Assembly: GCF_002608075.1 (NCBI RefSeq)
Contig: NZ_LAHA01000001.1
Coordinates: 321,014-385,013 of the forward strand
DNA length: 64,000 bases
Direction of reading: 5' to 3'
DNA from: Nostoc linckia z4
GTDB lineage: Bacteria; Cyanobacteriota; Cyanobacteriia; Cyanobacteriales; Nostocaceae
Both the position numbers and the translations under genes were made by a program. The notes beneath the pieces are model-generated. The model ran no database searches. It was not told the origin of the DNA and saw only the letters and a list, made by a program, of their open reading frames with translations. Below, piece by piece: positions 2,138 through 32,025 of the stretch. The number at the start of each line of letters is the position of its first letter. Position 1 is the stretch's first letter.

Positions 2138-2144
2138 ACGAGAT

Positions 2145-2182
2145 CAAAGGGTGAGTTTAATTTCTCGCCCTTTGTTGTTTTA
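2145..2182 (+). terminator. Rho-independent terminator
   Basis: CAAAGGGTGAG (2145-2155) pairs with CTCGCCCTTTG (2164-2174), one G-T wobble, 8-base loop, then a T-rich tail. It lies 8 bases after the stop of the 1748-2137 gene. Confidence 0.8.
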
Positions 2183-2397
2183 TAGAAGGTAAAGAAACTC
2201 CAAAAAATAAACAACAGTACATGGTAGTTGACTGTTGACTGTTCATTGTGAACAGTAGTAAATTTTTAAAAATTTATATTTCCTACTCCCAATTTTCTCA
2301 AAAGCCAAATAAAAATTAAAAAAAAAGTATTGATACGTGGTTTTAGTGCAATTTCTTGTATGTTGATTGTGTTTAATAATTCACAAACAAAAAAATT

Positions 2398-3252: not shown

Positions 3253-3253
3253 G

Positions 3254-3378
3254 AATTCAAAGAGTCAGAATTCAGGAGTCAGGAGTCAGGAGTCAGAATT
3301 CAGAATTCAGGAGTCAGAATTCAGAATTCAGAATTCAGGAGTCAGAATCCAGGAGTTAGAAGTCAGGAGTCAGAATTT
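3254..3378. repeat. GAATTCAG / GGAGTCAG short tandem repeat array
   Basis: About 125 bases of interleaved degenerate units (AGAATTCAG and CAGGAGT) in direct repetition. The same units recur at 6423-6463, 29699-29755, 29880-29925 and around 41345-41380. Such arrays are common in Nostoc-like intergenic DNA. No coding potential. Confidence 0.85.
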
Positions 3379-3594
3379 AAAGAATTTTTATAGCTGGCTA
3401 GTAGACTTGGCTTGTGTAGTTTATTTTCTGGAAATCTGTTGTCAGAATTAAAAAGTAGTTAGGGTAGATGCCTTAGCTACTTTCTTTATGTTGTAAATTT
3501 TTTGAAAATTAGTTTCAATTTCCGAAACCAGCCTGACAAATGGTGGAGAAAAAGGTTAGCTTAACTGTTAATCACAAGCCGCACCCCAGCAGCG

Positions 3595-4545: not shown

Positions 4546-4656
4546 TTCGTCAAGGAATTTTAGATTTTAAATTTTGGATTTTGGATTCACTAAACGAATA
4601 AATCCAAAGGTTCGTACCATAGCTATAACTCGCCATTTTTGGAGAATTTTTTCCTT

Positions 4657-6414
4657 ATGATGCTCAAGTTAATGGACAAAATCGGCGATGCGAATCCCCA
4701 ATTATTGCGGGAATTAAAAGGACGCCTGAAATTTTTTCATGTGGGGCTTGCGGTGGTAATTTCCCTACTACTGCAACTGGTAGTTTATTTATATCAGCTT
4801 CGGGAATTTCCTAATAAATATCCGCTTACTGGTACATACTGCCGTTTAAGTCCAATATATGAGGAACGACAAAGAAGGCTTTATCAGCAAGCAGATCAAT
4901 ATAAAATTAGCGAATTTCATAATTTCCTATCCAAGAATTTATGCCCGCACAACGAAATTAATTTCCAGTTATGGTGGCGAGACCATTGGGAATATATATT
5001 CCTGTCTTTGAGTGTAATTTTTATATTTACACTATTAGTTGCAGGAACTTATTTACTGATTAATGATTTAGTCAAAGAAGAACGTCGCGGTACGTTGAAT
5101 TTTATTCGCCTGAGTCCCCAATCAGAAACAAGTATCTTGACTGGCAAATTGCTAGGAGTTCCGAGTTTTATTTATCTGATAGTCTTAGTAGCAATTCCTT
5201 TACATTTGTGGGCTGGACATTCCGCCAACATAGCCTTGAGTTACATTTTTAGTTACTACGCTATTGTTATTGCTAGCTGTATTTTCTTCTACAGTGGTGC
5301 ATTACTTTTTGGGTTAGTTAGTCGCTGGCTTAGTGGTTTTCAGCCGTGGTTGGGTAGTGGTGCTGTCTTCTTTTTGTTGTTTATGACGATGATAATAGCA
5401 TCGTCCTATGGCAACAGTTTAAATAATTCCGGTGCTTGGTTGAGACTTTTTAATCCTTGGGATGTAACTAATTATTTGTTCCCGAATTTGTTCCGTATCA
5501 GCAATGGTTCTCCGCTACAAAACCTGGAGTTTTTCTATATACCTCTGGGAACAAATGTTGTGAGTGTTGTCGGCTTGCACTTATTCAATTATGGAGTTTG
5601 TAGTTACGGAATTTTCAAAGCACTAAAACGCTGTTTCCGTAATCCTCAAGCTTCAGTAATCAACAAGGGACAAAGTTATATAATAGTTGCTTTTTGCCAG
5701 TTGATGATGTGGGGATTTACCTTGCAATATTGGAACCAAGTTTTCGATTTAGATCGACAAGTTAGGGAAAATTTCAGTTTGATAGCGTTATATAACGTGG
5801 GGTTGCTTTTCAGTTTGATTGCAATTCTTACGCCTCACCGTCAAACTGTACAAGATTGGGCGAGATATAGACATCAAGCAAGCAACAAGAGTATTTGGTG
5901 GGATTTAACAACAAGTGAAAAAAGTCCTGCATTAGTGGCGATCGCCATTAATCTTATAATCGTTAGTATCCCTTGGCTAGTTTGGATTTCACTGACATCT
6001 GCTTTCGATATAGACCAGAGTCCAAATTGGGCAGGTGACAATATTAATAGGTTGAAATTACTTTTAGCCCTGGCTTTATTTATCAGCATGATGTTGATTT
6101 ATGCCACCATCGCTCAATTGATACTTTTGCTCAAAACTCCCAAACGTTCTTTCTGGGCTATTGGAACTGTTAGTGCAGTTATGTTCCTCCCCCCAGCGAT
6201 TTTGGAATTTATCGGTATGTCTTCATGGAAAAATCCCAGTATATGGCTGTTTTCAACTTTTCCTTGGTCAGGGATATCATATTCTGAGGCGACAACAATT
6301 TTTATGGCATTTTTAGCCCAGGTGAGTGTTTTAGCATTGTTAAACTTCCAGTTAACAAAACAGGTGAGATTAGCAGGTGAGTCTGCGACAAAAGCATTGT
6401 TGGCAGGACGTTAG
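4657..6414 (+). CDS. ABC transporter permease (ABC-2 type)
   Basis: About 585 residues with some ten to twelve hydrophobic segments, including ones near residues 35-55, 115-137 and 165-190, and a cluster in the C-terminal half. An EERRGTLNFIRLSPQSETSI segment follows the second membrane helix; this elbow-like motif is typical of ABC-2 permeases. An in-frame TTG lies upstream at 4639, but the ATG at 4657 (or the adjacent one at 4660) after GGAG is preferred. It is the membrane partner of the ATPase encoded just upstream. A terminator at 6514-6546 closes the unit. The substrate is unknown. Confidence 0.85.
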   Translation: MMLKLMDKIGDANPQLLRELKGRLKFFHVGLAVVISLLLQLVVYLYQLREFPNKYPLTGTYCRLSPIYEERQRRLYQQADQYKISEFHNFLSKNLCPHNEINFQLWWRDHWEYIFLSLSVIFIFTLLVAGTYLLINDLVKEERRGTLNFIRLSPQSETSILTGKLLGVPSFIYLIVLVAIPLHLWAGHSANIALSYIFSYYAIVIASCIFFYSGALLFGLVSRWLSGFQPWLGSGAVFFLLFMTMIIASSYGNSLNNSGAWLRLFNPWDVTNYLFPNLFRISNGSPLQNLEFFYIPLGTNVVSVVGLHLFNYGVCSYGIFKALKRCFRNPQASVINKGQSYIIVAFCQLMMWGFTLQYWNQVFDLDRQVRENFSLIALYNVGLLFSLIAILTPHRQTVQDWARYRHQASNKSIWWDLTTSEKSPALVAIAINLIIVSIPWLVWISLTSAFDIDQSPNWAGDNINRLKLLLALALFISMMLIYATIAQLILLLKTPKRSFWAIGTVSAVMFLPPAILEFIGMSSWKNPSIWLFSTFPWSGISYSEATTIFMAFLAQVSVLALLNFQLTKQVRLAGESATKALLAGR

Positions 6415-6422
6415 TTTGATGA

Positions 6423-6463
6423 AGCAGAATTCAGAATTCAGAATTTAGAATTCTGAATTCTGA
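6423..6463. repeat. GAATTCAG palindromic repeat
   Basis: CAGAATTCAGAATTCAG is followed by the inverted AGAATTCTGAATTCTG, giving an almost perfect hairpin of the same repeat family as 3254-3378. Confidence 0.75.
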
Positions 6464-6513
6464 AGTAAAACAGGGTTTATAGCTGGGTTCTACTTAATTT
6501 ACACGCGTTATAT

Positions 6514-6546
6514 CCCCGATTTATTTGATAAGTCGGGGTTCTTCTT
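6514..6546 (+). terminator. Rho-independent terminator of the ABC exporter genes
   Basis: CCCCGATTTAT pairs with ATAAGTCGGGG (one G-U pair) around a three-base loop, followed by TTCTTCTTTTT. It lies about 100 bases after the permease stop codon. Confidence 0.8.
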
Positions 6547-6714
6547 TTTGTTATATTATCTATTAATTAGCTACATAGTAAAGTTATAGAATTTTGAAAA
6601 AAATTAGCAAGAAACAAATTGCTTATAAAAATTTATTCATCTATCTGTAGGATGAATTTAATTAAATAATTTTAATTTTTTAATCAGTATAACTAATACA
6701 AAAATCTAAACATC

Positions 6715-7194
6715 ATGCTAGATCCTTCTACTGAAGACCTTCGCTGTATAGCCATTGAATTTTTAGAACAAAGCCCTACACAACGTCTGGAAATTCTCAG
6801 ACAATTGGGGATAGCTCGTTATGAGTTTTTAACCAAGATGCGCCTCAATGAAGCAAATATAATTTGTCTGATGCGGTTTTTAAAATATCCAAGTCGCCTA
6901 AAATTTCCAAATCTTCAAGAAGCAGATTTATCTGGTTTAACTTTAGATGGTATCAACTTTATTAGGGCAAATTTATCAGCAGCAAATTTACAAGGTAGCA
7001 GTTTAGTTAATGCCGACCTTTTATTTGCAAATTTCACAAAAGCTGATTTGAGGAATGCAGATTTGCGGGGTGCAACTTTGAATGAAACTATTTGGTTAGA
7101 TACTTTAGTAGATAAATGTCAGTTTGGTGTAGGTACTGGTTTAACTTATCTGCAACGCCAAGATTTACAATTGCGTGGAGCTAAGTTTAATTAA
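6715..7194 (+). CDS. Pentapeptide-repeat protein
   Basis: A 159-residue protein. Residues about 80-130 carry pentapeptide repeats of the A(D/N)LxX type ([47 protein letters not shown]), predicted to form a right-handed quadrilateral beta helix. The N-terminal 75 residues are helical and unlike the repeat. No signal peptide, so probably cytoplasmic. Cyanobacteria have many such proteins, mostly of unknown role. The upstream 300 bases contain the preceding terminator and AT-rich DNA, so it has its own promoter. Confidence 0.85.
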
Positions 7195-7293
7195 CTTAAA
7201 AAAGGCAGTGGGGAATATAAAAAAATTTGTTCATAGATGTATCTTGAAAAAAAGTTATAAAATTATGAAATTGAGATTAGTTTGGATGATTTA

Positions 7294-8457
7294 ATGAGTA
7301 TTAAACTGCCCCAAAAATTGATGTTGCTTGGTTCTGGAGAACTAGGGAAAGAATTTACCATCGCGGCTCAGCGTCTTGGTAATTATGTAATTGCTGTTGA
7401 CCGTTACCCCAATGCTCCAGCAATGCAGGTGGCTGACTGTTTTGAAGTAATTTCTATGCTCAGTGGGGATGATTTAGAAGCTATAGTTGCTAAGCATCAG
7501 CCAGATTTGATCATACCAGAAATTGAAGCAATCAGAACAGAAAAACTCATGGAATTTGAGCAGCGGGGAATTACAGTTATTCCGACTGCGGCGGCTACTA
7601 ATTATACAATGAACCGTGACAGAATTAGGGAACTGGCACACGAGGAATTAGGCATTAGAACAGCTAAATATGGTTATGCAGTCAGTTTAGAAGAATTGAT
7701 TGCTGTTTCCGATGAAATTGGATTTCCAAATGTTGTCAAACCAGTGATGTCATCATCTGGAAAAGGTCAATCTGTGGTACAGAATAAGAGTGAAGTAGAA
7801 AAAGCTTGGAATTATGCGATCGCTAATTCTAGAGGTGATAGTCAAAAGGTAATTGTAGAAGAATTTATTAATTTTGAAATCGAGATAACTTTACTTACAA
7901 TTAAACAGTGGAATGCCCCGACAATTTTCTGTTCTCCTATTGGTCATCGCCAAGAAAGAGGCGATTATCAAGAATCGTGGCAACCGGCAGAAATTTCTCA
8001 AGCTCAGATATTAAAAGCCCAAGAAATAGCCATCAAAGTCACTGACGCTTTAGGAGGGGCGGGAATTTTTGGTGTTGAGTTTTTCATTACCAAAGATGAA
8101 GTGATTTTTTCCGAACTTTCTCCCAGACCTCATGATACAGGTATGGTGACATTAATTTCCCAAAATCTCAACGAATTTGAATTACATCTCAGAGCTATTT
8201 TAAACTTGCCGATTCCTCATATAGAACAATTAGGAGCATCAGCGAGTGCGGTAATTTTAGCTTCTGAAAAATCTGATTCCATTACTTTTGTTGGTGTCGC
8301 TGATGCTTTGTCAGAAAAAGACGTAGATATTCGATTATTTGGCAAACCTAGCGCCCATCCATATCGGCGAATGGGAGTAGCTTTAGCAAAAGGTGTGAAT
8401 GTCAAAGAAGCTAGGGAAAAAGCTACTAAAGCTGCAAATAAAATTCAAATTATTTAA
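7294..8457 (+). CDS. purT: Formate-dependent phosphoribosylglycinamide formyltransferase PurT
   Basis: An ATP-grasp enzyme of purine synthesis. It makes formylglycinamide ribonucleotide from GAR, formate and ATP without folate. The N-terminal LLGSGELGKEFTIAAQRLG, then AVDRYPNAPAMQVAD, IPEIEAIRTE and VKPVMSSSGKGQS match PurT closely; the ATP-grasp metal site lies near FFITKDEVIFSELSPRPHDT. Full length is about 387 residues. An in-frame TTG at 7282 exists, but the ATG at 7294 matches the family N-terminus. Convergent with the Calx-beta gene; no purine gene is next to it. Confidence 0.95.
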   Translation: MSIKLPQKLMLLGSGELGKEFTIAAQRLGNYVIAVDRYPNAPAMQVADCFEVISMLSGDDLEAIVAKHQPDLIIPEIEAIRTEKLMEFEQRGITVIPTAAATNYTMNRDRIRELAHEELGIRTAKYGYAVSLEELIAVSDEIGFPNVVKPVMSSSGKGQSVVQNKSEVEKAWNYAIANSRGDSQKVIVEEFINFEIEITLLTIKQWNAPTIFCSPIGHRQERGDYQESWQPAEISQAQILKAQEIAIKVTDALGGAGIFGVEFFITKDEVIFSELSPRPHDTGMVTLISQNLNEFELHLRAILNLPIPHIEQLGASASAVILASEKSDSITFVGVADALSEKDVDIRLFGKPSAHPYRRMGVALAKGVNVKEAREKATKAANKIQII

Positions 8458-8464
8458 TGCAATA

Positions 8465-8983
8465 TTAACAACTAACATCATCAAGAATCTTCACCACTGC
8501 CTGAGAATTTTCTCCTAACATATATCGATGGTTATGGAGGAAATTTTCTAATTTTAACAAGATTGTTCTTGTACCCTGAAAGTCGCTTTTTTGCGGTTGG
8601 ATTATAATTATTGCCTGATTTACTCCAGCCGGAAAAATGGCAAAATTAGCAATTGGTTGGTAATCTACTCCATATTTAGCTGTTCCTTCGATGCTGTACT
8701 TCACGATTAAATCTTGAATCGGATCGCCATTACGAGTAATTACAAATTCACCAATGTCTCCAAATTGAGACGCGTAGTTTTTTGTGGCTGTAATGTTCAC
8801 AATGGTGGGGTAGTTGATATTTTTGGTTTCATTGCTGGATATGAAGTTAAATTGAGCTAATAGTTGCTTATGGCTAGAAAAATTGCTGAAATGGATAATA
8901 TTAGTAAATTGTGAATTATGAGCCAGGTAATTGAAGTCTGACAGGTGATTTTTCACTTGCGTATTCTTCATGATTTTCTTCAT
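8465..8983 (-). CDS. Small Calx-beta domain protein overlapping the wzc-like gene
   Basis: The last 110 residues form one clear Calx-beta domain: VNITATKNYASQFGDIGEF, then VKYSIEGTAKYGVDYQPI, IFPAGVNQAIIIIQP and a terminal VVKILDD. Calx-beta domains bind calcium and usually occur in long secreted or surface proteins. Here a single domain follows about 55 residues of unremarkable sequence with no signal peptide. Candidate ATGs at 8983 and 8971 both lie inside the end of the Wzc-like gene (stop at 8916). It may be translated by coupling, or be the remnant of a longer adhesin gene. It is last in exopolysaccharide operon A and converges on purT. Confidence 0.6.
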   Translation of the reverse strand: MKKIMKNTQVKNHLSDFNYLAHNSQFTNIIHFSNFSSHKQLLAQFNFISSNETKNINYPTIVNITATKNYASQFGDIGEFVITRNGDPIQDLIVKYSIEGTAKYGVDYQPIANFAIFPAGVNQAIIIIQPQKSDFQGTRTILLKLENFLHNHRYMLGENSQAVVKILDDVSC

Positions 8984-11114
8984 TGGAGTAGTAATAACTG
9001 TAGCGTTCGTGTTGGGGGAAAACTCCGTTGATAACCTGTCCCAAGACATTCTGACCAGATTTTTCTAAAAGCTCTTTTGCAATGGTGGCACTAACACAAT
9101 CAACTACTCCTGGACGGACAATAAATAATACGCCATCAGCCATTTGTCCTAGAGTAGCAGCATCAGCAGCAACATTTAATGATGGAGCATCAATAATTAC
9201 GAAATCGTAGTAAACAGAAAAAGTTTGAATTAATGCAGCCATTTTTTTAGAGTCAAGGAGAGAACCAGGATTCGGAGGTATAACTCCACAAGTGAGGACA
9301 TACAAATTATCCATTACTTGTTTGATAGCTGTATTAATTTCAGCTTGTCCAACGATTAAATTGCTAAGACCTTCATTATTAATTAGTTCCCAAATTTTAT
9401 GCTGAACAGGACGGCGCATATCCGCATCCACTAATAAGATTTTGCGTTCCATTTGAGCCATTGTAATGGCTAAATTGGCTGCTACTGTGGATTTGCCTTC
9501 CTTGGGTACGGAACTAGTGATAACTATAACTTTTAGTTCCTTATCAGCACTCATAAATTTGAGATTTGCCCGCAGCATCCGGTATGCTTCATTAATAGAC
9601 GATCGCGGTGCATCTCGAACCATGAGTCTTTTACTATATAGCTCCATTTCTTCATTGCCGCGGAGATAATTTTTCGGCTTATTAAAAGCAGGAATTACCC
9701 CTAATAAAGTAAAGTTTAATAATTCCTTTGCTTGCTCAGTTGTCTTAATTGATTTATCGATTTTTTCCAAAACATATACAACCGCCAATGCAGCTAAACT
9801 AGACAATAAACCTGTACTTAAATACAAAAACATCGGAGAAGAAATGGACTCTTCTGGAACTTCTGCCTGCGATATAACGCTAGCATTACCTAAACTTTGA
9901 TTTTCTGCTATGCGGCTTTCTTGCAATTTTTGTAATAAAAGCGAATAGGTAGATTGCGCTGCTTGTACCTTACGTTCTAATTGTCGCTGTTGCTGTTCTA
10001 ATCTTGGGAGATTGTTTAAGCGTTCTTTGTAACTAGTTTCTAAATTAGATAAAGTGGTGATTTGACTTGCTAAACCCAAACGAGTTGATTCTAAATCAAC
10101 CAGTCTTGCAGAAAGTTGTTGCTCTAACTGTCCTAGTTGCAAATTATTATCTGGCTGTGGTGAATTGCTACCAACAACGTTTTTGACTCGTTGTTGTAGT
10201 AATTGATTTAAAGACTGTAATTTATATACCAAATTAATAATTTCTGGATGATTATCTTGTAAAACACTCCGCCTAGCCGCCAGCTGTGATTCTAACTGCT
10301 GGATTTCCCTCAGAATATCTTGTACCCCTGAAGTTTGACTCAAAGAAGTCATAATTATGGCTTGCTGAGAGTTCATTCGTAACTGTTTTTTGATTTGTTG
10401 ACTTTGTGCTTCAACATCAGCAAATCTAGATTGAGCTTCACTAATTTGCTGTTGTAATCCAGTGATGAGTTCTAGTGATTTATTTGCTTCTTCTTGTAGG
10501 GATACAATTTTATTTCTTTCTTTAAAAACTGCTAGTTCTGCTTCTGCTTGTCGAACCACTAATTCTGCATTTGGCAGTTGTTTTTCGATAAACTTGCGAG
10601 CAGTTGCAGCTTGAGTTTTATGACCAGCTATATTGTATTCTAAATACACTGCTATGAGAGTATTAACAACTTGTGCAGCTGTTTCTGGGTTTGTATCTTT
10701 GTAGGCAATACTAAGAATATCCGCTCCCTTTGTTTCCTTCACCGTCAACCGTTGGAGAAATTCTTTGGTTGTTAAAATTAGATTTTCATTGTTTCTGAGA
10801 TTGAGTTGATTAATAGTAGCTTTAACAATTGGAATAGAACGAATCACTTCTGTTTCTGTATTCAAAGGATTGCTTTTATCACTTACCAATGGCTCTAATT
10901 TACCTATTTCTGTTCCTACTCCTGTTAAAGAAGAAGTAGTGTTAGTTCTTTGGAATTTTAGTTTTCCTTCTGCCAAGTAGTAAGGTTTTTTAAAAAATGT
11001 AGCTATTTGTAAAATTATGAATACACAAACAAAAACACTGAAGGCAGCAGGCCAACGACGCTTGATGGCTTGCCAATAGCGATCGAAATTTCCAGGAGAC
11101 TCTTGTGTTTTCAT
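8916..11114 (-). CDS. Wzc-type polysaccharide co-polymerase and BY-kinase
   Basis: A 732-residue fused chain-length regulator and bacterial tyrosine kinase. Membrane segments lie at about residues 20-42 and 428-452 and enclose a Wzz domain and a long periplasmic coiled coil (about 170-400). The cytoplasmic kinase has Walker A SVPKEGKSTVAANL, Walker A' ILLVDADMRRP and Walker B FVIIDAPS. The C-terminus carries the autophosphorylation cluster ERYSYYYSNEENHEEY. The family sets export and length of capsule or exopolysaccharide through cycles of tyrosine phosphorylation. A Wzb-like phosphatase is not seen beside it. Second-last gene of operon A. Confidence 0.93.
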   Translation of the reverse strand: MKTQESPGNFDRYWQAIKRRWPAAFSVFVCVFIILQIATFFKKPYYLAEGKLKFQRTNTTSSLTGVGTEIGKLEPLVSDKSNPLNTETEVIRSIPIVKATINQLNLRNNENLILTTKEFLQRLTVKETKGADILSIAYKDTNPETAAQVVNTLIAVYLEYNIAGHKTQAATARKFIEKQLPNAELVVRQAEAELAVFKERNKIVSLQEEANKSLELITGLQQQISEAQSRFADVEAQSQQIKKQLRMNSQQAIIMTSLSQTSGVQDILREIQQLESQLAARRSVLQDNHPEIINLVYKLQSLNQLLQQRVKNVVGSNSPQPDNNLQLGQLEQQLSARLVDLESTRLGLASQITTLSNLETSYKERLNNLPRLEQQQRQLERKVQAAQSTYSLLLQKLQESRIAENQSLGNASVISQAEVPEESISSPMFLYLSTGLLSSLAALAVVYVLEKIDKSIKTTEQAKELLNFTLLGVIPAFNKPKNYLRGNEEMELYSKRLMVRDAPRSSINEAYRMLRANLKFMSADKELKVIVITSSVPKEGKSTVAANLAITMAQMERKILLVDADMRRPVQHKIWELINNEGLSNLIVGQAEINTAIKQVMDNLYVLTCGVIPPNPGSLLDSKKMAALIQTFSVYYDFVIIDAPSLNVAADAATLGQMADGVLFIVRPGVVDCVSATIAKELLEKSGQNVLGQVINGVFPQHERYSYYYSNEENHEEYASEKSPVRLQLPGS

Positions 11115-22291: not shown

Positions 22292-22520
22292 TGTTGGGCA
22301 TTGGGCATGGGGCATTGGGCATTGGGCATTGGGCATTGGGCATTGGGCATGGGGCATGGGGCATTGGGGATGGGAAGAGGACAAGGTAGACAAGGTAGAC
22401 AAGGTAGCAATCTTTCTCTCCGAAGTTCTGATGGTCGGAAACCTCCGCTCAGACTTCTCTCCTTGTCTCCCCCCTCTCCCCATCTCCCCCCTCTCCCCAT
22501 CTCCTTCATCTCCCCATCGC
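22292..22520. repeat. Composite repeat: GGGCATT array, ACAAGGTAG array, core hairpin, CTCCCCAT array (copy 1)
   Basis: GGGCATT/GGGGCAT heptamers (22295-22372) are followed by ACAAGGTAG units (about 22380-22410) and a core of about 55 bases in which GAAGTTCTGA can pair with TCAGACTTC. Then come CTTGTCTCC and CCCCATCT units that are roughly complementary to the left half. The whole element therefore forms a large imperfect inverted repeat. The core and flanks are repeated almost identically at 54826-55035. It separates chrA from the convergent histidine kinase gene, whose last codons lie inside it. Confidence 0.85.
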
Positions 22521-23627
22521 CCTCCTTCGCAAGCGGAACCAAAATCTAGAACCACCTCCGGGGCGGGGTAAATAACCAATACTGCCTCCCCAGCGTTCTA
22601 GTGTGATTCTACAAAAATAAAGACCTAAGCCGGCTCTGCCTGATTTATCTTTGCCTTGGGAGAATTTTTGAAATAAATGTTTTACCATTTCTGGTGGTAC
22701 GCCAGAGCCGCGATCGTCTATGTTAACTAAAACATATTCTCCATCTAACTGGAGACTAATAGTTACTATAGAATCTTGAATGCTATAACGATAAGCATTC
22801 TCTAATAAATTAGAAATTACTCTATCTAAACGAGATTTTTCTCCTAGCACTCTCCAGTCTATTGTTGTGTCAATTTCGTTATCAAGCTCTAATTGGATAT
22901 TTTTCTGAGAAAAAGTTGGCTTGAGAAACTCAATTACTTCTTCTAGAGAATTTAAAAGATTAGGTAATTCTTCAATATAAAAATTAGAGTTTTCTAATGA
23001 AATTATTTCAGTAGAAAAAATATCTAAAATATCTTGAATTAGACTTTGTTGTTTCAAACATTGCTGTCTACCTACTTCTAAATATTCTTTTCCTTTAAGT
23101 GTTAAATTTTCATATTCTAGTAATGATAAACAACCATTTATCGCACTTAATTGTCCTGCAATATCATGCATGATACAATGAAGTAATATATCTTTTTTTT
23201 GATTATCTTTGAGTAATTGATAATAAATTAATTCATATTCTCTACCTTTTTGGATAAGATATTGCTTATCTTGATAAGTCTCTTCTAAAAGCTCTATTAA
23301 TAAAATTCTTTTATGATTGACAAAAAGTGCATAGGCTTCAAATTGATATTCTTGTCCATTTGTATCTACTTCAGTCCATAAACCCGAACTGATTTTTTTA
23401 CTGCTATCGTTCAGCCAAAATTCTTCAGCATCAATTAAAAAGTTTTTTAAAAAACAAAATTTTTCTTCTGGTACTGATATATTCATCCCTGAGGTTAATT
23501 TCTGATGATAAAATTGATTTAACCAATCAGGTATATTACCAATAATTTTAAATAAACCTGGATTAATATACTCTAGAGTTAGAATCTTTAAAGCAGCCAG
23601 GACACCATTTGTAATAGATGTATTCAT
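22506..23627 (-). CDS. Sensor histidine kinase (PAS-like sensor, HATPase)
   Basis: A 373-residue soluble kinase. The N-terminal 150 residues look like a degenerate PAS-type sensor; a helix (TYQDKQYLIQKGREYELIYY) leads to the H-box CIMHDIAGQLSAINGCLSLL with His near residue 165. The ATP-binding domain has an N-box LDRVISNLLENAYRYS, G1 IDDRGSGVP, F-box and G2 GRAGLGLYFC. No membrane segment. Its stop codon lies within a repeat block, so the last few residues (RRRAMGR) may be recent. Last gene of a five-gene operon with a Ras-like GTPase. No response regulator is adjacent. Confidence 0.88.
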   Translation of the reverse strand: MNTSITNGVLAALKILTLEYINPGLFKIIGNIPDWLNQFYHQKLTSGMNISVPEEKFCFLKNFLIDAEEFWLNDSSKKISSGLWTEVDTNGQEYQFEAYALFVNHKRILLIELLEETYQDKQYLIQKGREYELIYYQLLKDNQKKDILLHCIMHDIAGQLSAINGCLSLLEYENLTLKGKEYLEVGRQQCLKQQSLIQDILDIFSTEIISLENSNFYIEELPNLLNSLEEVIEFLKPTFSQKNIQLELDNEIDTTIDWRVLGEKSRLDRVISNLLENAYRYSIQDSIVTISLQLDGEYVLVNIDDRGSGVPPEMVKHLFQKFSQGKDKSGRAGLGLYFCRITLERWGGSIGYLPRPGGGSRFWFRLRRRAMGR

Positions 23628-23654
23628 GGTTTAAATTTTGAATGATTAATATAA

Positions 23655-24044
23655 TTATTTATTTAATTTTTCTTGCAAAAGATTATACTCATTGCCTTTT
23701 TGTTGAGTAGCGAAAAGTTGATTTTCATCACAGCTACTATCTAACAATAATATCCAATCGCCTTCTTGTGTAGAAAACATATGAACATCTGCACAACTCC
23801 CATACTCTGTTTTGAGAAACGGTAAAAATAAAGAAGTTTCATTCAGTGGTAGTAAACCCTCTAGAAAATAAACTTGCTCTGTGATATTTTCTCCTTTAGT
23901 GAGGTTAATAATGCCATATTTTGCTAACTTGCCTCCCCAATCCAATAGGCTACCATCTTTGTTCACCAACAGATACGCCAGGGAACGCTCTGCTGTGAAA
24001 AAATTGAGAAGATAGGTAATTACAGGATTAGGGACATCTAGCAT
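23655..24044 (-). CDS. Small PAS-like protein paired with the histidine kinase
   Basis: A 129-residue soluble protein. The segment ERSLAYLLVNKDGSLLDWGG, a middle LEGLLPL turn, and the pair VHMFSTQEGDWILLLDSS resemble a PAS fold, ending in a helix (ENQLFATQQKGNEYNLLQEKL). That ending echoes the linker after the sensor region of the following kinase, so the two proteins may share a sensor module. The ATG directly abuts the stop codon of the GTPase gene. I do not recognise a named family; a signal-input or adaptor role is inference. Confidence 0.6.
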   Translation of the reverse strand: MLDVPNPVITYLLNFFTAERSLAYLLVNKDGSLLDWGGKLAKYGIINLTKGENITEQVYFLEGLLPLNETSLFLPFLKTEYGSCADVHMFSTQEGDWILLLDSSCDENQLFATQQKGNEYNLLQEKLNK

Positions 24045-24545
24045 TTAGCAATCCAAGATTTTTCTAGCAAGAGTTTGAAAAACTTCTTCTACACCTAGTC
24101 CATTTTTAGCACTGGTTTTAATCACAGTCCAACCCTTTTCTATCACTCGATCTAGTTCAATAGGTTCAATTTCCCATTCATCTGTAATATCGTACTTGTT
24201 CATCACCAAAATAAATGGAACTTTACCAATGGCATCTTCCACTCTTGTTTGGAGATGGAAAGCTATTTCTAGAGTATTACGCCTCGTCCCATCAACCACT
24301 AATAAATAACCAGCACAACCGCGTAAGTAGGACATTCGTACTTTTTGAAATTCATCTTCTCCGTAGAGATCCCAAAGAATCAGATTGATCTTATTTTCTT
24401 CAATATTTATGGTTTTTTTGTCAATTTTTACACCTACAGTAGTATGGTATTTATCAGAAAAAATACTGTGAACGAACTGAGATACTAAACTAGTTTTACC
24501 TGTAGCAAATGCACCTATCATACAAATTTTTTTCTGAATAACCAT
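24045..24545 (-). CDS. Bacterial Rab/Ras-like small GTPase
   Basis: A 166-residue single-domain GTPase with all five G motifs. G1 is GAFATGKTS (residues about 11-19), the switch I Thr lies in YHTTVGVKI, G3 is WDLYGEDEF, G4 is MNKYD and G5 is TSAKN. It is closer in style to Rab GTPases and the bacterial Rup/MglA group than to translation GTPases. The G3 motif carries Glu in place of the catalytic Gln of DTAGQ, suggesting weak intrinsic hydrolysis and the need for a partner. No lipidation Cys motif beyond a single terminal Cys. Encoded between the OmpA-domain and PAS-like proteins. Confidence 0.9.
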   Translation of the reverse strand: MVIQKKICMIGAFATGKTSLVSQFVHSIFSDKYHTTVGVKIDKKTINIEENKINLILWDLYGEDEFQKVRMSYLRGCAGYLLVVDGTRRNTLEIAFHLQTRVEDAIGKVPFILVMNKYDITDEWEIEPIELDRVIEKGWTVIKTSAKNGLGVEEVFQTLARKILDC

Positions 24546-24563
24546 AAATAAATTTATATACTT

Positions 24564-26351
24564 TTAATTCGATTGTTTAGCTAGAAATACTTTAAAAGAT
24601 ACTCGACGGCTATTAACATTTTGAGATTCTGGTTTGATTTTTAGCTCCAAAGGTTGCTGAGAAGCAACACCTATGGCTTGAAGTTGTTTTGTATTGATTC
24701 CTTGGGATTTCAAATAAGATAAAATTTTCTCAGCACGAGCTTGACTGAGGAGCATATTGGTTTGTTCTGTTCCTGTATTATTTGTATGTCCAATAATCTG
24801 AATTTGCACGTTTTTATCTAAATATTGAGCAATATTCAAAAAATTACGTATTGAGAGAGTTAAATTTAGTAACTTAGTAGTTTCACCAGAGCTAAGTTCA
24901 GCTGAACCTTCTACAAAAAAGAATATTTTTTCTTCTATTTGTTTTTTAAATTCCTCCAATTGGCTAAGTTCTATTGCTACTAAATTTTTCTCTTGAAATT
25001 GAGTGATGCCAGGAATAAAATGCCATAATTGACGCGCTTGTAAAATCCATTGCCGGGATGCATAACCTGTGGCGTTGATAATACCGCTTTTATCCACTTG
25101 TAGTGATACAGTTGGGGGTGGATTTAACAATTTTTGAACTCTTTTGGTAGTAAATTCTGCTTCCAAAGACAAGTAAGGTTGCCACTGACTAATTACTTTT
25201 TTGGGGTTGAGATTTGTTTGTTGTATGAGTGTATTGGGATCTACTGCTAGAGGGTCGTGCATTCCCCTGATAAAGTATTTGCCAAAACTTTGGTGGGAGC
25301 TAATTACAACAATTCCTGGCTGAGAGTTGAGTTTTTGCAGATAGGCTCGCCAACGGAGTTGTTCTCTAATAGTAAAAAAGCCCCAAGTTCCAAAAGCGAT
25401 CGCCATTACACCTAAAAGAATCCAAGCATAGGTATAATTTTTTTTAGTAGCAGATTTATACTTAACTACTAAGCAATCTTCTAAATCGAGCTTACTAACA
25501 TCGAATATTTCTGTATCTCCCGCAAAATCTTTAATTTCTTGACTAAACTTTAGGTGAATTTTTTCAATTGCTTCTTGTAAAACTAACCTAAATTCTTGGG
25601 GAGGATTTCCCCGAATTATAGCTGCTATTAATGCTTGCGGCCCCTCTTCAATCCAAATTATGACTTCTCCAAAACGTAAACTTTTTATTCCATCTCCTTT
25701 TTGGACATTGAAGGAATCTTTGATAAAATCCTGGATAGCTGTCAACATGGCAGCTACTAAATCTGGATCTTGAATCGGAACGTGCTTTGTTACTAAATGT
25801 TGCAGTAATAATCCAGATTCTTTATGAATCAGAAATATTTGTTCTACTCGGTAAACTAACGTCCGTAGCAGCACAATTTCTGCAAATGATTTCCCTGTGC
25901 GTTGTGCTTCCCATCTCCACTGAAAACTTTGTGGAGATAAGCTATGTTCTAAGGTTTGATTCAAAGATTGAATCATTTCTTCCAAAGCTGTAGAAATCGC
26001 CTTTCGAGTGGCTGGGCCAATGATTGGAAATAATGCATCTGCAAGCACATTATGGTCTTGTTTTACAGAAACTTCAATGGCTTCTTCAACAGTAGATACC
26101 ATTACTTCCCCTAGTTGTTTATCTTGCTTTGCGCGTAGAATCACAGCTTCTGGAAGCATTTTGCTAATATCTTCTGGTTGAATTTCAGGGTTTTCTAGTC
26201 GCTGATAAAGTCTTTCAAGTTTCGTCGGCTCGATATCTAGCAGCAAACTACGAAGTGTAGTTAATTCATCCTTAATTTCAGAGGCTTGGCTTTTACTTGT
26301 CAAACCACCAGGAGATACTTTTGGTATTTGATTTATCGAAGAGTCACTCAT
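24564..26351 (-). CDS. Membrane protein: cytoplasmic roadblock-like region, one TM, BON-like and OmpA domains
   Basis: About 595 residues. The cytoplasmic part (about 1-310) ends with a region (GLLLQHLV, then LVAAMLTAIQDFIKDSF, then LRFGEVIIWIEEGPQALIAAII) resembling a roadblock/longin module, the kind that partners Ras-like GTPases. One membrane helix follows at about 320-340 (WILLGVMAIAFGTWGFF). The periplasmic side has a BON-like stretch and a C-terminal OmpA domain: GHTNNTGTEQTNMLLSQARA and NSRRVSF, which binds peptidoglycan. The ATG at 26351 with GGGGGA 8 bases upstream is preferred over the in-frame 26426. It could couple the cytoplasmic GTPase to the cell wall. Confidence 0.75.
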   Translation of the reverse strand: MSDSSINQIPKVSPGGLTSKSQASEIKDELTTLRSLLLDIEPTKLERLYQRLENPEIQPEDISKMLPEAVILRAKQDKQLGEVMVSTVEEAIEVSVKQDHNVLADALFPIIGPATRKAISTALEEMIQSLNQTLEHSLSPQSFQWRWEAQRTGKSFAEIVLLRTLVYRVEQIFLIHKESGLLLQHLVTKHVPIQDPDLVAAMLTAIQDFIKDSFNVQKGDGIKSLRFGEVIIWIEEGPQALIAAIIRGNPPQEFRLVLQEAIEKIHLKFSQEIKDFAGDTEIFDVSKLDLEDCLVVKYKSATKKNYTYAWILLGVMAIAFGTWGFFTIREQLRWRAYLQKLNSQPGIVVISSHQSFGKYFIRGMHDPLAVDPNTLIQQTNLNPKKVISQWQPYLSLEAEFTTKRVQKLLNPPPTVSLQVDKSGIINATGYASRQWILQARQLWHFIPGITQFQEKNLVAIELSQLEEFKKQIEEKIFFFVEGSAELSSGETTKLLNLTLSIRNFLNIAQYLDKNVQIQIIGHTNNTGTEQTNMLLSQARAEKILSYLKSQGINTKQLQAIGVASQQPLELKIKPESQNVNSRRVSFKVFLAKQSN

Positions 26352-26458
26352 TACCAAAATCCCCCAATCCCCAATTATTATGACGTAACATTTTGTTGTT
26401 AATAGGAGAACTGTGCTGATAGTCAAACAATCAACTTTGCGCTTTCTATTTTTGGAAT

Positions 26459-27064
26459 TTAAGATTTGTTGTCTGCTTTCAAATGGACAACTAATTCTGT
26501 AAACATAGCGGCTAGATGCGAACGGTCTGTTTTGTCTCTACGAAGATGTTGTACTTCCCGTTCTAATAAAGCTAAAATTTCCTGAGATTTTTTTTGAATA
26601 TCATCTTGTAAACTTTTAGATTGGTTGAAAATATGCTCGTGTAACTCTCGTTGATTCTTAGTACTTTGTTCGTCAAATTGAGTCAACTTATGTTCTAAAG
26701 CTATATTTATATTTTTATTTTCTTCAGCAACGCTTTTCAATTGAATATCGCGTTCTTTTTGTTCGTTGTGGAGACGCTGTGTTAAAGAATCAACTTCTTG
26801 TTTGACATAATTTTCTAAAGCATCTAAACGTTTTTTATTTTCATCCCGCACATTATTGAATTCTTGTAGTAGGCGTTCTTCTAGACGGGTAAATCTTTTT
26901 TCAATATCTCGAATTTGATTGCCAATCAGAATTTCTCTAACTTTATCCAAACTCCTAGTTTCGCTAATACCATTGCTAAATTGCAACTCGTTATTTGCTG
27001 GATTAACTTCTTCTTGTTCTACTTTAAATGAATTATGATTGATGTATTCTTCTGGTGGATTCAT
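26459..27064 (-). CDS. Coiled-coil protein, first gene of the GTPase operon
   Basis: A 201-residue highly charged protein. From about residue 40 to 185 it is predicted almost wholly coiled coil (IRDIEKRFTRLEERLLQEFN, EQKERDIQLKSVAEENKNIN, KSQEILALLEREVQHLRR), with a short tail (HLAAMFTELVVHL). No membrane segment or signal. As first gene of the operon it may be a scaffold or filament-like partner of the GTPase or of the membrane OmpA protein. The family is not recognised. Confidence 0.7.
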   Translation of the reverse strand: MNPPEEYINHNSFKVEQEEVNPANNELQFSNGISETRSLDKVREILIGNQIRDIEKRFTRLEERLLQEFNNVRDENKKRLDALENYVKQEVDSLTQRLHNEQKERDIQLKSVAEENKNINIALEHKLTQFDEQSTKNQRELHEHIFNQSKSLQDDIQKKSQEILALLEREVQHLRRDKTDRSHLAAMFTELVVHLKADNKS

Positions 27065-27239: not shown

Positions 27240-28883
27240 TTATTGAGAAGAAAGTCTATGTATTTCCTCGCCCAACTGTCGCCGGACTGATTCCAGCTTA
27301 GTTGTATCCCGTGTCCAGTGCTTCCAGTCAAGTCCTACAGTCCGAACTAATGAAAGCGCCCACTGTTGGCGATCGCGATTTTTAAGTATTTCCAGATACT
27401 CGTAATCTTCTACGCCTTCTCTAAGCCACTTCAGCCTCATGGAAGGAACAACTCCTTTGATACCTACTTGTTTCCCTGGATAAAACAACATTCCTTCACC
27501 AGGAAAATAGTGTTTGTATTTCTTCTGGAAGTATGTTTGAACGTCTTTCCAAGGATCTTTTGTCCATAGGTCAACTCGCCAGTATAAAATCCCTGTTAAT
27601 CCAAGGCTTTGGCTAATAAAACCCGGATGAATTCGGTAGTTTATTGGTTCAAAATCTATCTGCCATTTGGGAGAGTATCCGTCTTGTACTAAAGCATTGT
27701 AAGACCAAACTTTATCTCCTTTTTGTAAAACTTCAGTAATTCGCTCAGCAGCTTCATCATAGACTTCTGGCAATACTATCCATATATCTACAGCTGTACG
27801 TCCAGTTCCAGAACCATCATCATAAAGTGCAGGTGTGGGAGTCATTGCTAAAGCAGTTGCAACTCCAGCTTGATGAAAATTTCGCGCCCATTCCTTTACT
27901 GGTTCAATTAAATTTGAGCAGTTATCAATTTCATCAGCATATCTAGCATAGAGAAATAAACCTGATTGATGTTTAGCAGCAGTGGTTTTAATCTTTTGAA
28001 GAGGAGGTGCTGGAGCCATTTTGCAAGTACTGACATTAGCCCCACTCCAAAAAGGAAGACTCCGGGAACGCAGTCCCCATTGCTTGATTAACTCTGGTTC
28101 GTATGCTGGATTAAAATGAGCATCTGGCATTAATTTATGTTTGAGAAGTTCGATCATTTCGCTTTTATCTTCATGTTCATAAAATGTGAACTCAGAATTC
28201 AGCGATGGTTTGATGGGTAGCTCAAAATTCCAAACTTTCAAGTGAATTTTACCTGCCATCTTTCCTTGGTCGCTACTAACAGTAAAAGTACCTTCATAGT
28301 TTCCAGCTTGAGTGTTGCGCGGGACAAAAATGTCTACCCAAATCGGTTGGTTATATCCAGCTTTTAAGTTGAATGGAACAGCGTCTAATTCTGCACCTGT
28401 AATATCTTTTTTGTTTTCGGGATTAATAAATGGAATTAATCCATCAGCATACCATCCAGTACCTAAAGATGGATTGGTACTGCCTTTTTTGTTAGGACTG
28501 GCATGAGTAACGCGGACGTAATGTTCGCGGTAGAGTGTAATATTTGAGTTGGAAATTACTCGATTATTAACAGCAGACAAATCCGAAACCACGACATTTA
28601 CATTTGTCAAACCATTATTGGGTGCGCGAATTCCTATTTGAAAAGGTTCGTATTCTCCCCGCGCCGCATACAAATCAATTTCGGTTTTAGCTCCTGCTGG
28701 GTCTTTTTGCTTGATTCTTTGCAGATTCGGAACTACCCAGACAACAAAGCGATCGCCTAAGGATGAGTTATTAGCTAATAACCCAATATTTAAACAAGCA
28801 AATAAAGTAAATACTGCCCCCAATATCCCGAAGATAAGTTTGAGTTTGTTGGCAAATCTGAGCTTTTTTTTAAAAAAAGACAC
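27240..28883 (-). CDS. Membrane-anchored DUF4091-domain protein (glycoside-hydrolase-like)
   Basis: A 547-residue protein with an N-terminal signal anchor (LIFGILGAVFTLFACLNIGLL). Residues about 50-230 form beta-sandwich domains (YAARGEYEPFQIGIRAP, NTQAGNYEGTFTVS); the C-terminal part holds the DUF4091 signature (GILYWRVDLWTKDPWKDV, FYPGKQVGIKGVVPSMRLKW, REGVEDYEYLEIL). DUF4091 is related to GH123-like glycosidases, often N-acetylhexosaminidases. Placed between polysaccharide and RTX genes, a role in cell-surface glycan turnover is plausible but not shown. Catalytic residues not assigned. Confidence 0.8.
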   Translation of the reverse strand: MSFFKKKLRFANKLKLIFGILGAVFTLFACLNIGLLANNSSLGDRFVVWVVPNLQRIKQKDPAGAKTEIDLYAARGEYEPFQIGIRAPNNGLTNVNVVVSDLSAVNNRVISNSNITLYREHYVRVTHASPNKKGSTNPSLGTGWYADGLIPFINPENKKDITGAELDAVPFNLKAGYNQPIWVDIFVPRNTQAGNYEGTFTVSSDQGKMAGKIHLKVWNFELPIKPSLNSEFTFYEHEDKSEMIELLKHKLMPDAHFNPAYEPELIKQWGLRSRSLPFWSGANVSTCKMAPAPPLQKIKTTAAKHQSGLFLYARYADEIDNCSNLIEPVKEWARNFHQAGVATALAMTPTPALYDDGSGTGRTAVDIWIVLPEVYDEAAERITEVLQKGDKVWSYNALVQDGYSPKWQIDFEPINYRIHPGFISQSLGLTGILYWRVDLWTKDPWKDVQTYFQKKYKHYFPGEGMLFYPGKQVGIKGVVPSMRLKWLREGVEDYEYLEILKNRDRQQWALSLVRTVGLDWKHWTRDTTKLESVRRQLGEEIHRLSSQ

Positions 28884-30237
28884 TTCAAATTCTCCTGATG
28901 CAAATATTCTTGAAGAGAGAGATAAATTTTATACTTGGAGATTAGTAAATGCCTGAAATATTAATTTACCATTTCATAGTGTTTTCTCTAAGACTTGTGC
29001 AACCAAATAAAATCAAAAGTTTTAATTTCTTCAAAGCAGATGACAGAAAATTTAAAAATAAAATAAAAAGAATAGGACTTACGCAAAAACTTATGATTAG
29101 CTATAATTTTTGTATAAATACGCTTGTATTCGCTGTAAAACATCTAGACGTTTTCCAAGATGAGCGATCGCCAATTTTCCAATTTGACATCACTATAAAG
29201 TTTATGTAAAGCTGCGAGGTTTCTTAACGCCAAAAATTTATAGATAATATATCAATTTAAGTTATGTATTTTTTGAATTTTTGCCTTTATTAAAAAAATA
29301 TTTTATTTACATAAATAAAAATAATTTTTAACAAAATAAACAACAATTGAAATATAAATTAATAATCAAACTCTATTACGCTAAAAAAGCTGTTAAGGTT
29401 CACCAAAAAAATCAGTAGAGGCTGAAAAATATTTAATTTAAGTTAATTCACTATATTGCAATGTATTATTAATGATATTTTTCAACATTTTAAAGATTTG
29501 ATAAAGAAGTTTAGTTAACCTATCGAACGTGATAAGTAAATACTTACAGCTTAACTCAAAAAAATTGACAAAAGAATCAAAATTATCGATCTAATTACCA
29601 TTTGAATAATAAATGCTAAAGGTAACAGGGAGATTCCCACATTTATAATGTGGGATTTCAAAAATGGTGCTGTTTTTTACCCTTTGCGTTTGTTGAAGAA
29701 GAATTCAGAAGTCAGAATGGGCTAAACGCCCCGCTACCGCTAACAGGAGTCAGAATCAATTAGTGGCGGGTCTAAATCCCCCACTAATTGTTCGCGTAGC
29801 GTCTCTCCTTGGGAGAAGACCACTAAATCTTTGATTTAGTGGGGGTCTTAAAGCCGTTTATTCATCTACTAGTCGCACTCCAATTCAATTCTGAATTCTG
29901 GCGACTGACTCCTGAATTCTGTTTTGATAAAAACATCTTTTTTAAACTGCGGCTCTAGTTTTTTGTTCCCTGATGCCTACCTTGAAGGAATAATTTTTAG
30001 AGACATAAATTATCTAATTTTGTAGATTAGGCATGTTATTTGCCACTAATCAAAGGCAGGCTTTTCTGGCTTGCCAACAATAATTAGTTGGATATTTTTT
30101 GTTTAGAACTTTCTAAACAAACAATTTAATGTTTTCTAATTTAACACTTATACAAATGGTAAGCGATCGACATTGAACTGATGAATAGTTCTTTGATTGA
30201 GGCTGAACTTACATATCATAAATTCAGGAGAAATAAC
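28884..30237. other. 1.35-kb leader / intergenic region upstream of the first RTX gene
   Basis: No gene is supported; the 86-codon frame at 28949-29209 has no ribosome site. It contains AT-rich DNA, a CCCACATTTATAATGTGGG hairpin at about 29635-29653 and a repeat cluster at 29697-29925. Scattered blocks are related to the region upstream of the second RTX gene: ATCAATTTAAGTTAT near 29250, ACATTTTAAAGATTTG near 29485, GTTGGATATTTTTTG near 30090, and AGTTCTTTGATTGAGGCTGA just before the gene. Confidence 0.55.
29697..29925. repeat. Cluster of short dispersed repeats
   Basis: GAATTCAG/GGAGTCAG units flank two hairpin repeats: ATTAGTGG ... CCACTAAT (29759-29788, loop contains CGGGTCTAAATCCC) and CCACTAAATC/GATTTAGTGG (29820-29842). 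Between them GTAGCGTCTCTCCTTGGGAGAAGAC matches a motif common in Nostoc-like genomes. The cluster has no counterpart upstream of the second RTX gene, so it was inserted into the first leader or lost from the second. Confidence 0.75.
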
Positions 30238-32025
30238 ATGGCATCTATTTTCGGTACCACAAATCCTGACAGTCTGACTGGAACTTCGGGAAATGACACT
30301 ATAGTTGGTTGGGCACTTGGTGGTAATGCCAATAGTACCTCTGGTAACGATACTTTAAATGGTGCAGCTGGTAACGATTCCCTTGCAGGTGGGACAGGGA
30401 ACGACAGCTTAATTGGTGGAGATGGCAACGACACACTAGATGGCGGTACAGGAAACGATACCTTCAGAGGCGGCCAGGGTAGCGATAGCATTAATGGCGG
30501 AGATGGCCTCGATACCGCAGACTACAGTCAACTCAATCAAACCATTACCTTGTCAGGTGTCGGAACCATTCAAAAAGGGGCATTAGGGCAAGACCAACTT
30601 TTTAAAGTAGAAAAAGTTATTGCAAATGCTAGCGTTGCTAACAACACCATAGATGCATCTGCATCTTTGTCAGGAGTATTTATTAGCGTTAACCTGCAAG
30701 CCCAAACTATCTCTGCTAATAACGTTCCTGGTTTGGGAACAATATCATTTTCTGTAATCAACTTTGATAACATCATCGGCACAAATGCAAATGACATCAT
30801 TATTGGTGACAACCAAAACAACCAATTATCAGGTAATGGTGGCAACGATAGTCTAAACGGTGGAAATGGCGATGACACACTTAATGGTGGTTTAGGTACT
30901 GACACATTGAATGGCGCAGCAGGCAATGACACCTATATCATTGACGGTGCTGTTGACACTATTGTTGAGGCTGCTAATTCCGGTACAGATGTCGTTCGGT
31001 CTTCTATTACCTACACACTCGCTGCTAATGTGGAAAATCTCAGGCAAACGGGAACTAGCGCCATCAACGGCACAGGTAACACTCTTAACAACTTCCTGTT
31101 TGGTAATAGTGCAAACAACACTCTTAATGGTAGAGCAGGTAATGACACCCTAGACGGTAATTTGGGCAATGACATCCTCAATGGTGAGGATGGCAATGAT
31201 AGCCTACAAGGCGGGCCTGGTAATGACAGTATCAATGGAGGATCTGGAGACGACATCCTCATCGGTACTTTTCCTGGTAGCTTGCTTCCACCGGGATTAG
31301 GAGAACTTGATACCCTGACTGGTGGACTTGGGGTAGATAGATTTATCCTGGGAGACTCTTTAAATGTTTTCTACGACGATAACAACACTATCAATCCTGG
31401 TTTTAGTGACTTGGCTGTTATCACTGACTTCGACTCGAACCTAGATAGAATTGAACTCAAAGGAGCTGTACAGGACTACCTGCTGCAAGGTGTTGCAGGC
31501 AATACACGGATATTCTTAAACAAACCGGGAACAGAACCAGATGAGATTATAGGTATTGTGCAAGGAAGAACCAATCTCAGACTTGATAGTGACGACTTTC
31601 TTTTCTATGAGCAGGAAGATGCTGGGCAAGGTACAAACAATACACTAGCCACTGCTGAAGGATTAGGTTCCCTATCATCAGGATCGAATGTGAATATTTC
31701 AGCTCGCTTAGCAACAATTCAAGGGAGTAATCTTGATTTTGACTTTTTTAGATTTTCTTTAGCAAATGCAGGAACTGTCACTATTGAGACCCTGACATCA
31801 GGAGATACAGTTCTCGGACTGTTTAACAACGCTGGTAATGTACTGCAAGTCAATGATGATTCTGGCGCAAACTTACAATCGTTTATCAGTAGTTCTCTAA
31901 GTGCAGGTACGTACTCTATTGCAGTGAGTAAATTTAATTTCTTTCCTCAAGATGGTGGAACTTTCTTAGGAGGTGGCATATCTAATCCTGATTTTTCTTA
32001 TACGCTCAAAGTTACTTTTGCTTAA
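30238..32025 (+). CDS. RTX (hemolysin-type calcium-binding repeat) protein, copy 1
   Basis: 595 residues with no cleavable signal peptide. GGxGxDxLx nonapeptide repeats occur in three blocks: residues about 30-95, 200-250 and 300-355 (for example [20 protein letters not shown] and [20 protein letters not shown]). They form a Ca-binding parallel beta roll. A C-terminal domain (about 475-595) resembles the PPC/DVUA0089 type ([20 protein letters not shown] ... VLQVNDDSG). The ATG at 30238 with AGGAG 8 bases upstream is chosen over the in-frame 30181 because the paralogue has the same site. Probably exported by a type I system encoded elsewhere; cell-surface or matrix protein. Confidence 0.9.

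Follow-up and report, generated by a model that had tools for sequence, protein, structure and literature searches.

We analyzed a window (the whole stretch of DNA studied) of 64,000 nucleotides from Nostoc linckia z4 (NZ_LAHA01000001.1, positions 321,014–385,013 of the forward strand), in which five co-oriented open reading frames (ORFs) on the minus strand, at 22506–27064, form one operon. Their products are a coiled-coil protein, an OmpA-domain membrane protein, a GTPase of Ras/Rab-like type, a small PAS-type protein and a histidine kinase (Table 1). The gaps between them, in operon order, are 107 bp (counted from the ATG at 26351), 18, 0 and 27 bp, and the ATG of the 129-amino acid (aa) PAS-type protein abuts the GTPase stop codon in the same frame. 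An earlier note, made from the sequence, had proposed these genes as one operon, which the ORF list and synteny in relatives bore out, and had taken them for a set with no described counterpart. That second claim did not hold, as the available parts of the paper that divided prokaryotic small GTPases into MglA and Rup describe such gene neighborhoods for Group 1 Rup GTPases (Wuichet and Sogaard-Andersen, 2014; PMC4316618). The module in the window is best read as a cyanobacterial five-gene version of this predicted set. It is real and conserved and apparently unassayed at the bench, no experimental study of the gene set having been found in the open-licence literature.

Table 1. Features of the operon, with window coordinates and the basis of each assignment.
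Feature	Position	Strand	Basis
Coiled-coil protein, 201 aa, first gene	26459..27064	-	Coiled coil by eye
Membrane protein with OmpA domain, 595 aa from conserved ATG	24564..26351	-	Pfam, alignment; listed ORF (TTG, 620 aa) begins 26426
Roadblock/longin-like region of OmpA protein (predicted), model residues 138–256	25530..25886	-	AlphaFold2 and Foldseek
Predicted transmembrane helix of OmpA protein	25368..25424	-	Hydropathy
OmpA-type domain, expected periplasmic	24612..24917	-	Pfam OmpA 7.3e-15
Ras/Rab-like GTPase, Group 1 Rup type, 166 aa	24045..24545	-	Pfam Ras 4.4e-32, motifs
Stand-alone class A PAS protein (predicted), 129 aa	23655..24044	-	AlphaFold2/Foldseek; Gln115 in 40/42 rows
Histidine kinase, 373 aa, N-terminal class B domain	22506..23627	-	HATPase_c 7.3e-24, HisKA 8.1e-4
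Class B N-terminal domain of kinase	23178..23627	-	Profile search; Gln126 in 61/65 rows

The assignment of the third gene as a Rab/Ras-like GTPase was confirmed by its Pfam Ras match; in the PDB, the sequences closest to it are those of Rab-23 and Rab4A. Its motifs are Ras-like (G1 GAFATGKTS, G3 WDLYGED, G4 NKYD, G5 TSAK) and lack the G3 Gln, Glu standing at the place of the catalytic Gln61 of Ras (DLYGE), as the earlier note had also seen. Among 81 window-type GTPases this place holds E (66), D (8), K (3), Q (2), A (1) or S (1). Among the loci listed, window-type GTPases from other phyla share 51–65% identity with that of the window. A tree was built from 44 rows, comprising 25 of the 81 window-type GTPases, 13 GTPases of a second kind of module (type I), four MglA sequences taken from loci with Robl_LC7 genes, and two Rab proteins. 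The four MglA rows split off at 100/100, ruling out membership of the MglA family and leaving the window GTPase on the side of the type I and Rab rows. Support for the joining of the two Rab sequences to type I is 91/96. The window-type GTPases cohere except for L136, that of the window grouping with other heterocystous cyanobacteria (98/95).

The same genome carries a type I module of its own (at G000:C25), whose GTPase is 37% identical to that of the window. In the corresponding locus, L039 (G000:C25:188000-203000), this module at 1130–10475 adjoins genes for REC-SpoIIE, HATPase_c_2 and STAS proteins (Pfam), neighbors that resemble the HmpU/W/V partner-switching set by layout alone; L052 is alike by eye. 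HmpU/V/W control hormogonium development in Nostoc punctiforme, according to the available parts of a group of papers (among PMC4915359, PMC8256260, PMC6495340 and PMC10581220).

A genome scan gave at least 80 loci, of which the best 80, that is the closest, were retained; counts for loci "with room" cover those with enough flanking sequence. Nitrospira, Acidobacteria, Meiothermus, Bacteroidales and Verrucomicrobia are among the groups that carry the module. Upstream of the GTPase, the OmpA protein is present in 70 of the 75 loci with room, the coiled coil in 68 and both in 68. On the GTPase strand both genes are missing from L081, L088, L094, L099 and L104 (the last having the two nearby on the opposite strand), and the coiled coil only from L068 and L086. 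For the downstream side we defined class A as the type of the 129-aa protein and class B as that of the kinase N-terminus, and searched for each with profiles; these counts replaced those of a first joint PAS/kinase profile, which had drifted to response regulators and other kinases. A class A or class B domain follows the GTPase within 1.5 kb on the same strand in 72 of 77 loci with room, and all parts of the module are present in 62 of the 72 with room on both sides. The five-gene form of the window is seen in 10 of the 13 nearest loci (L059–L071); L064 and L071 have no 129-aa gene, and L068 has no coiled coil and a short OmpA ORF. In L064 (Fischerella muscicola PCC 7414) the kinase is split, at 8732–9856, into ORFs of 119 and 251 aa.

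Within the family of the window we surveyed 217 genomes, scoring the best few candidates in each; these genomes are related, so that their counts are not independent. At the cut-offs used, 98 have the OmpA protein, 94 the kinase, 82 the 129-aa protein and 80 all three. The OmpA protein and kinase occur together in 93 genomes, the OmpA protein alone in five, the kinase alone in one and neither in 118. Where both occur, their genes lie on one strand within 3.5 kb in 89 of 93 genomes, and all 81 genomes with both a 129-aa gene and an OmpA gene have these two linked. The four unlinked kinases comprise one that resembles a contig break (G327), two distant on the same contig (G191, G477) and one deep inside another contig (G470). 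In a wider sample, a window-type OmpA protein (at least 47% identity) was found in 6 of 292 cyanobacterial genomes, including that of the window itself. Since the OmpA protein and kinase co-occur and are linked in the family genomes, and since the gene order of the module is conserved across loci, the arrangement is not due to chance, and chance clustering was rejected. A narrower version of this idea is that the 129-aa protein and kinase are accidental neighbors of a system made of coiled coil, OmpA protein and GTPase only. The 129-aa protein is absent from 17 of the 98 genomes that have the OmpA protein, and the kinase lies elsewhere in three, as this would predict. Without the OmpA protein, however, the kinase is found in only one of its 94 genomes and the 129-aa protein in one of its 82, both in the same genome (G351), whose contig equals in length that of L068, the locus with the short OmpA ORF, and the same domain classes trail the GTPase across phyla, making accidental neighborhood highly improbable.

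The coiled-coil protein matches no Pfam family above its cut-off, and its most conserved residues in an alignment of relatives include R43, L46, G48, Q50, R181 and L184. For the OmpA protein, the most likely start is the ATG at 26351 (595 aa) and not the TTG (620 aa), because 91% of the 74 aligned rows have Met at that position. Its hydropathy reaches a maximum of 1.83 over the 19 residues from residue 313 (598-aa numbering), and the Pfam OmpA match covers residues 504–605 of the 620-aa ORF. The OmpA end is missing in four relatives (L090, L095, L110 and L123).

The cytoplasmic region of the OmpA protein has no consistent Pfam match, the commonest family appearing in 6 of 72 members, and its sequence profile gave weak matches only against the PDB (best E 0.053, to designed proteins). 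We modeled this part with AlphaFold2 (307 residues, 72 sequences). In the model, residues 138–256 form, in order, a helix, two strands, a second helix, three strands and a last helix, and a Foldseek search of the PDB gave 1106 matches at E ≤ 10, with 28 at E ≤ 1e-3. These 28 come from TRAPP, MglB, Mon1-Ccz1, Ragulator (and MP1/p14), CPLANE, AP complexes and an Asgard roadblock protein; the matched chains are presumably the roadblock/longin-type ones. Template modeling (TM) scores normalized by target were 0.51–0.68 in these rows, apart from three long targets at 0.23–0.24. As one control, the model of the 129-aa protein pulled PAS-type entries instead, so Foldseek separates these similar topologies. 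The modeling thus supports a roadblock/longin-like fold for the cytoplasmic part, in line with the roadblock-like region predicted by the earlier note. The two outcomes that the note had named as refuting its idea, no roadblock-like fold predicted for this region and no synteny of the five genes in related species, did not come about. Roadblock/longin domains hold or regulate small GTPases. By analogy, the domain in the membrane protein would be a natural candidate regulator of the neighboring GTPase; MglB is both a GTPase-activating protein and a guanine nucleotide exchange factor for MglA, according to the available part of one report (PMC11016934).

That MglB chains are among the best fold matches also speaks for an MglA/MglB-like polarity module, in which the GTPase would mark a pole or septum and the OmpA protein pin it to the wall, organizing motility or filaments, and so does the HmpU/V/W-like set beside the type I module. 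The latter, however, is the other copy in this genome, its likeness being one of layout only. Against the same idea stand the 100/100 split of the GTPase from the MglA rows, the lack of a separate mglB gene in the operon, outputs that are signaling enzymes and the presence of the module in many phyla. We regard a polarity module as decidedly unlikely. The closeness to MglA/MglB seen by the earlier note is contradicted by the GTPase tree, and nothing at the locus points to the polarity, motility or filament organization that it had envisaged.

Downstream of the GTPase, the 129-aa protein matches no Pfam family. Its AlphaFold2 model (mean predicted local distance difference test score, pLDDT, 89.1; predicted TM score, pTM, 0.76) gave 1126 Foldseek matches, one of them at E ≤ 1e-3; the 50 listed are PAS, LOV or phytochrome entries, or kinases and other proteins holding such domains. 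YkuI is one of the proteins that hold a domain of this kind. The protein is accordingly predicted to have the PAS fold, as the earlier note had supposed. Its reading of the last gene as a histidine kinase was also upheld, by HATPase_c; the HisKA match (19.8 bits) falls below the cut-off of 26.9. Class A was found in 41 ORFs of the best 80 loci and class B in 66, with at least one of them in 74 loci. The two share one chain in 10 ORFs and stand in two adjoining chains in the window, suggesting that classes A and B act together. Each has a conserved Gln, the counts in Table 1 including the window; that of class A (Gln115) sits in the C-terminal helix of the model, and for class B (Gln126) two fragments of fewer than 70 residues were omitted. 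The class B Gln is replaced by Arg in three Desulfovibrionaceae/Desulfovibrio records (L131, L137 and L138), and in L137 and L138 the G3 acidic residue of the GTPase is also gone (S, K). Neither profile matched the PDB up to E 1. Compared by hhalign, class A and class B align Gln with Gln weakly (probability 27%, E 7e-4), and class A aligns with type I outputs at 93% (E 2.5e-7), again Gln with Gln.

The enzymes attached to these domains are varied, with kinases, sigma-54 activators, HD, PP2C, cyclases and GGDEF among them. Pfam scanning of 71 of 76 first downstream ORFs (L095, L102, L111, L121 and L128 were omitted, and the ORF scanned for L131 was a wrong, overlapping one) found HATPase_c in 16, a sigma-54 activator in 15, HD in 5, SpoIIE in 4, Guanylate_cyc in 4 and GGDEF in 2. 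In three loci (L072, L073 and L074) the first output is a class A domain joined to Guanylate_cyc, and heterocystous genomes have a bare protein of 129–137 aa at the place of this class A-cyclase output. From this we infer that the enzyme was lost in heterocystous genomes and that the cyclase was the ancestral partner in cyanobacteria, a history that is uncertain. The constant core and variable outputs suggest a flow from GTPase to output. The opposite direction, with a kinase that senses a signal and controls a GTPase as the output, has been posited for actinobacterial conservons, to which the available parts of Wuichet and Sogaard-Andersen (2014; PMC4316618) liken Group 1 Rup. The gene content is alike (kinase, roadblock-type protein and GTPase), and the operon has no response regulator, as a conservon-like direction would lead one to expect. 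In relatives, however, the place of the kinase is taken by sigma-54 activators, cyclases, GGDEF, HD or SpoIIE, which look like outputs rather than sensors, and we consider the conservon-like direction unlikely.

From the gene set, its synteny and co-occurrence, the conserved residues and the variable outputs, all observed, together with the two modeled folds, we propose as the probable reading that the operon encodes an envelope-tethered GTPase switch gating PAS-fused enzymes, a Group 1 Rup module. The contacts, the direction of signaling, the signal and the response are all conjectured here. The OmpA protein would cross the inner membrane, its outer side sensing or touching the envelope, while its cytoplasmic roadblock/longin-like domain would dock the GTPase and set its nucleotide state, with the coiled-coil protein as a scaffold. 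In one nucleotide state the GTPase would bind the N-terminal PAS-type domains of the outputs and so switch the enzyme joined to them, which in this operon is the histidine kinase; the response regulator of the kinase would be encoded elsewhere. The 129-aa protein may be a class A PAS output minus its enzyme (a nucleotidyl cyclase in three other cyanobacterial loci), now serving as a GTPase-binding partner of the kinase class B domain or as a competitor for it. The conserved output Gln may assist GTP hydrolysis in trans, in keeping with the suggestion, in the available parts of the 2014 paper, that the missing G3 Gln of the GTPase is supplied in this way (PMC4316618). The three genomes in which the kinase has been relocated far off yet retained (G191, G470 and G477) count in favor of such a switch.

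Several findings weigh against the GTPase-switch reading. The cytoplasmic part was modeled with middling confidence (mean pLDDT 73.7, pTM 0.49), its Foldseek E-values are no better than 1e-4 to 1e-3, the TM scores of the 28 best rows normalized by query are 0.24–0.32, three AP rows superpose badly (root-mean-square deviation 12–16), and Pfam Robl_LC7 was found in 1 of 72 members (E 0.026), with no other of them matching it at E ≤ 1. All 70 aligned rows of the OmpA domain retain Arg542, and 46 of them have Asp where the window has Asn527. An Asp at this position binds diaminopimelate in other OmpA domains. Of the peptidoglycan-binding membrane protein in the earlier note, the membrane helix and OmpA domain therefore stand, and wall binding by this copy is plausible and not assured, since Asn replaces the majority Asp. 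Five of 77 loci (L090, L095, L110, L111 and L136) have no class A or B domain downstream, the OmpA-bearing family genomes without the 129-aa protein have been given above, five of the OmpA-bearing genomes are without the kinase, and no response regulator was identified for the kinase or among the operon ORFs. In two Acaryochloris loci (L078 and L106) the first output is a class A protein with no match to a cyclase or other recognized enzyme, which makes cyclase ancestry less certain. As for the trans Gln, among loci with an output domain (L064 being dropped for a gap at the Gln61 place) the output Gln is altered in 3 of 5 with a non-acidic residue at the Gln61 place and in 2 of 69 with an acidic one, the window included (Fisher p = 0.0015; 0.013 with two Desulfovibrio loci merged). 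That place is taken by S, H, Q or R in type I GTPases, yet 12 of 13 type I output domains keep the Gln. The two positions therefore do not covary in general, and we gave no weight to the covariation, which consists of few events.

A bolder form of the GTPase-switch reading would make Group 1 Rup a bacterial counterpart of Ragulator/TRAPP-type control, in which an envelope-contacting roadblock/longin protein sets a Rab-like GTPase that gates plug-in PAS-fused enzymes, a Gln given in trans completes the active site, and heterocyst-formers have cut their cyclase output down to a free PAS regulator. As a whole this form is rather doubtful. If true, a roadblock/longin-like domain within a conserved partner would link bacterial and eukaryotic GTPase control, and would make the regulator, the effector and the source of the missing Gln testable.

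The genes around the module share no common thread. MscS-like and AsmA-like genes lie near it in the same eight Nitrospira/Nitrospiraceae loci (by BLAST, with Pfam for L082 only); in L082 the genes for an MscS-type mechanosensitive channel and AsmA are directly upstream, at 2384–5386. Neighbors in cyanobacteria include a permease and a protein of about 1040 aa of unclear nature, each in 6 loci. In the window, a co-oriented GH123-like gene (Pfam) lies upstream of the operon at 27240–28883, and L059 has an ORF of equal length (547 aa) at the same place, likened to it by length and position alone. A protein at 30181–32025 has many GGxGND-type repeats and is presumably a calcium-binding RTX-like protein. 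At the other end, C-rich repeats and 10.7 tandem copies of the seven-base unit TTGGGCA, at 22294–22526, lie behind the kinase gene and run into its 3' end.

Among known systems, Ragulator, TRAPP and Mon1-Ccz1 likewise use roadblock/longin domains to hold or regulate small GTPases at membranes, and are among the best fold matches; they differ in being multi-subunit and eukaryotic and in having no wall-binding domain, the likeness being one of modeled fold only. The MglA/MglB systems of Myxococcus and Thermus share a small GTPase and a roadblock-fold partner, whereas the window GTPase is of another family, its presumed roadblock-like partner domain lies inside a transmembrane OmpA protein, and the output is a kinase. 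Conservons (CvnA-D) also unite a kinase, a roadblock protein and a GTPase in one gene set, their CvnD being an MglA homolog and CvnB a separate MglB homolog in the available parts of the 2014 paper (PMC4316618), and the window operon has neither. Conservons have no OmpA protein, and no counterpart of CvnC was seen in the window operon. We take CvnC to be DUF742.

The closest match is Group 1 Rup, for which the available parts of Wuichet and Sogaard-Andersen (2014; PMC4316618) describe, in cyanobacteria among others, neighborhoods with a coiled-coil gene, a gene for an unknown domain often followed by a transmembrane segment and OmpA, and a gene for an output protein, typically GGDEF/EAL or a kinase, with an invariant Gln in its N-terminal region; Gln is absent from G3 of the GTPases, and no Rup member had been characterized as of 2014. 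The window shares the Ras-like GTPase without the G3 Gln, the coiled coil, the domain-transmembrane-OmpA protein, the kinase output and an N-terminal output Gln, Gln115 and Gln126 being equated with the published residue by description only. It differs from that account in that the "unknown" domain here receives a roadblock/longin-like model, that the outputs of its relatives range more widely than the two typical kinds named in 2014, and that a second PAS protein, one with no enzyme attached, separates the kinase from the GTPase. In gene set, this extra 129-aa PAS gene is all that the window adds to the 2014 description, as far as its available parts go.

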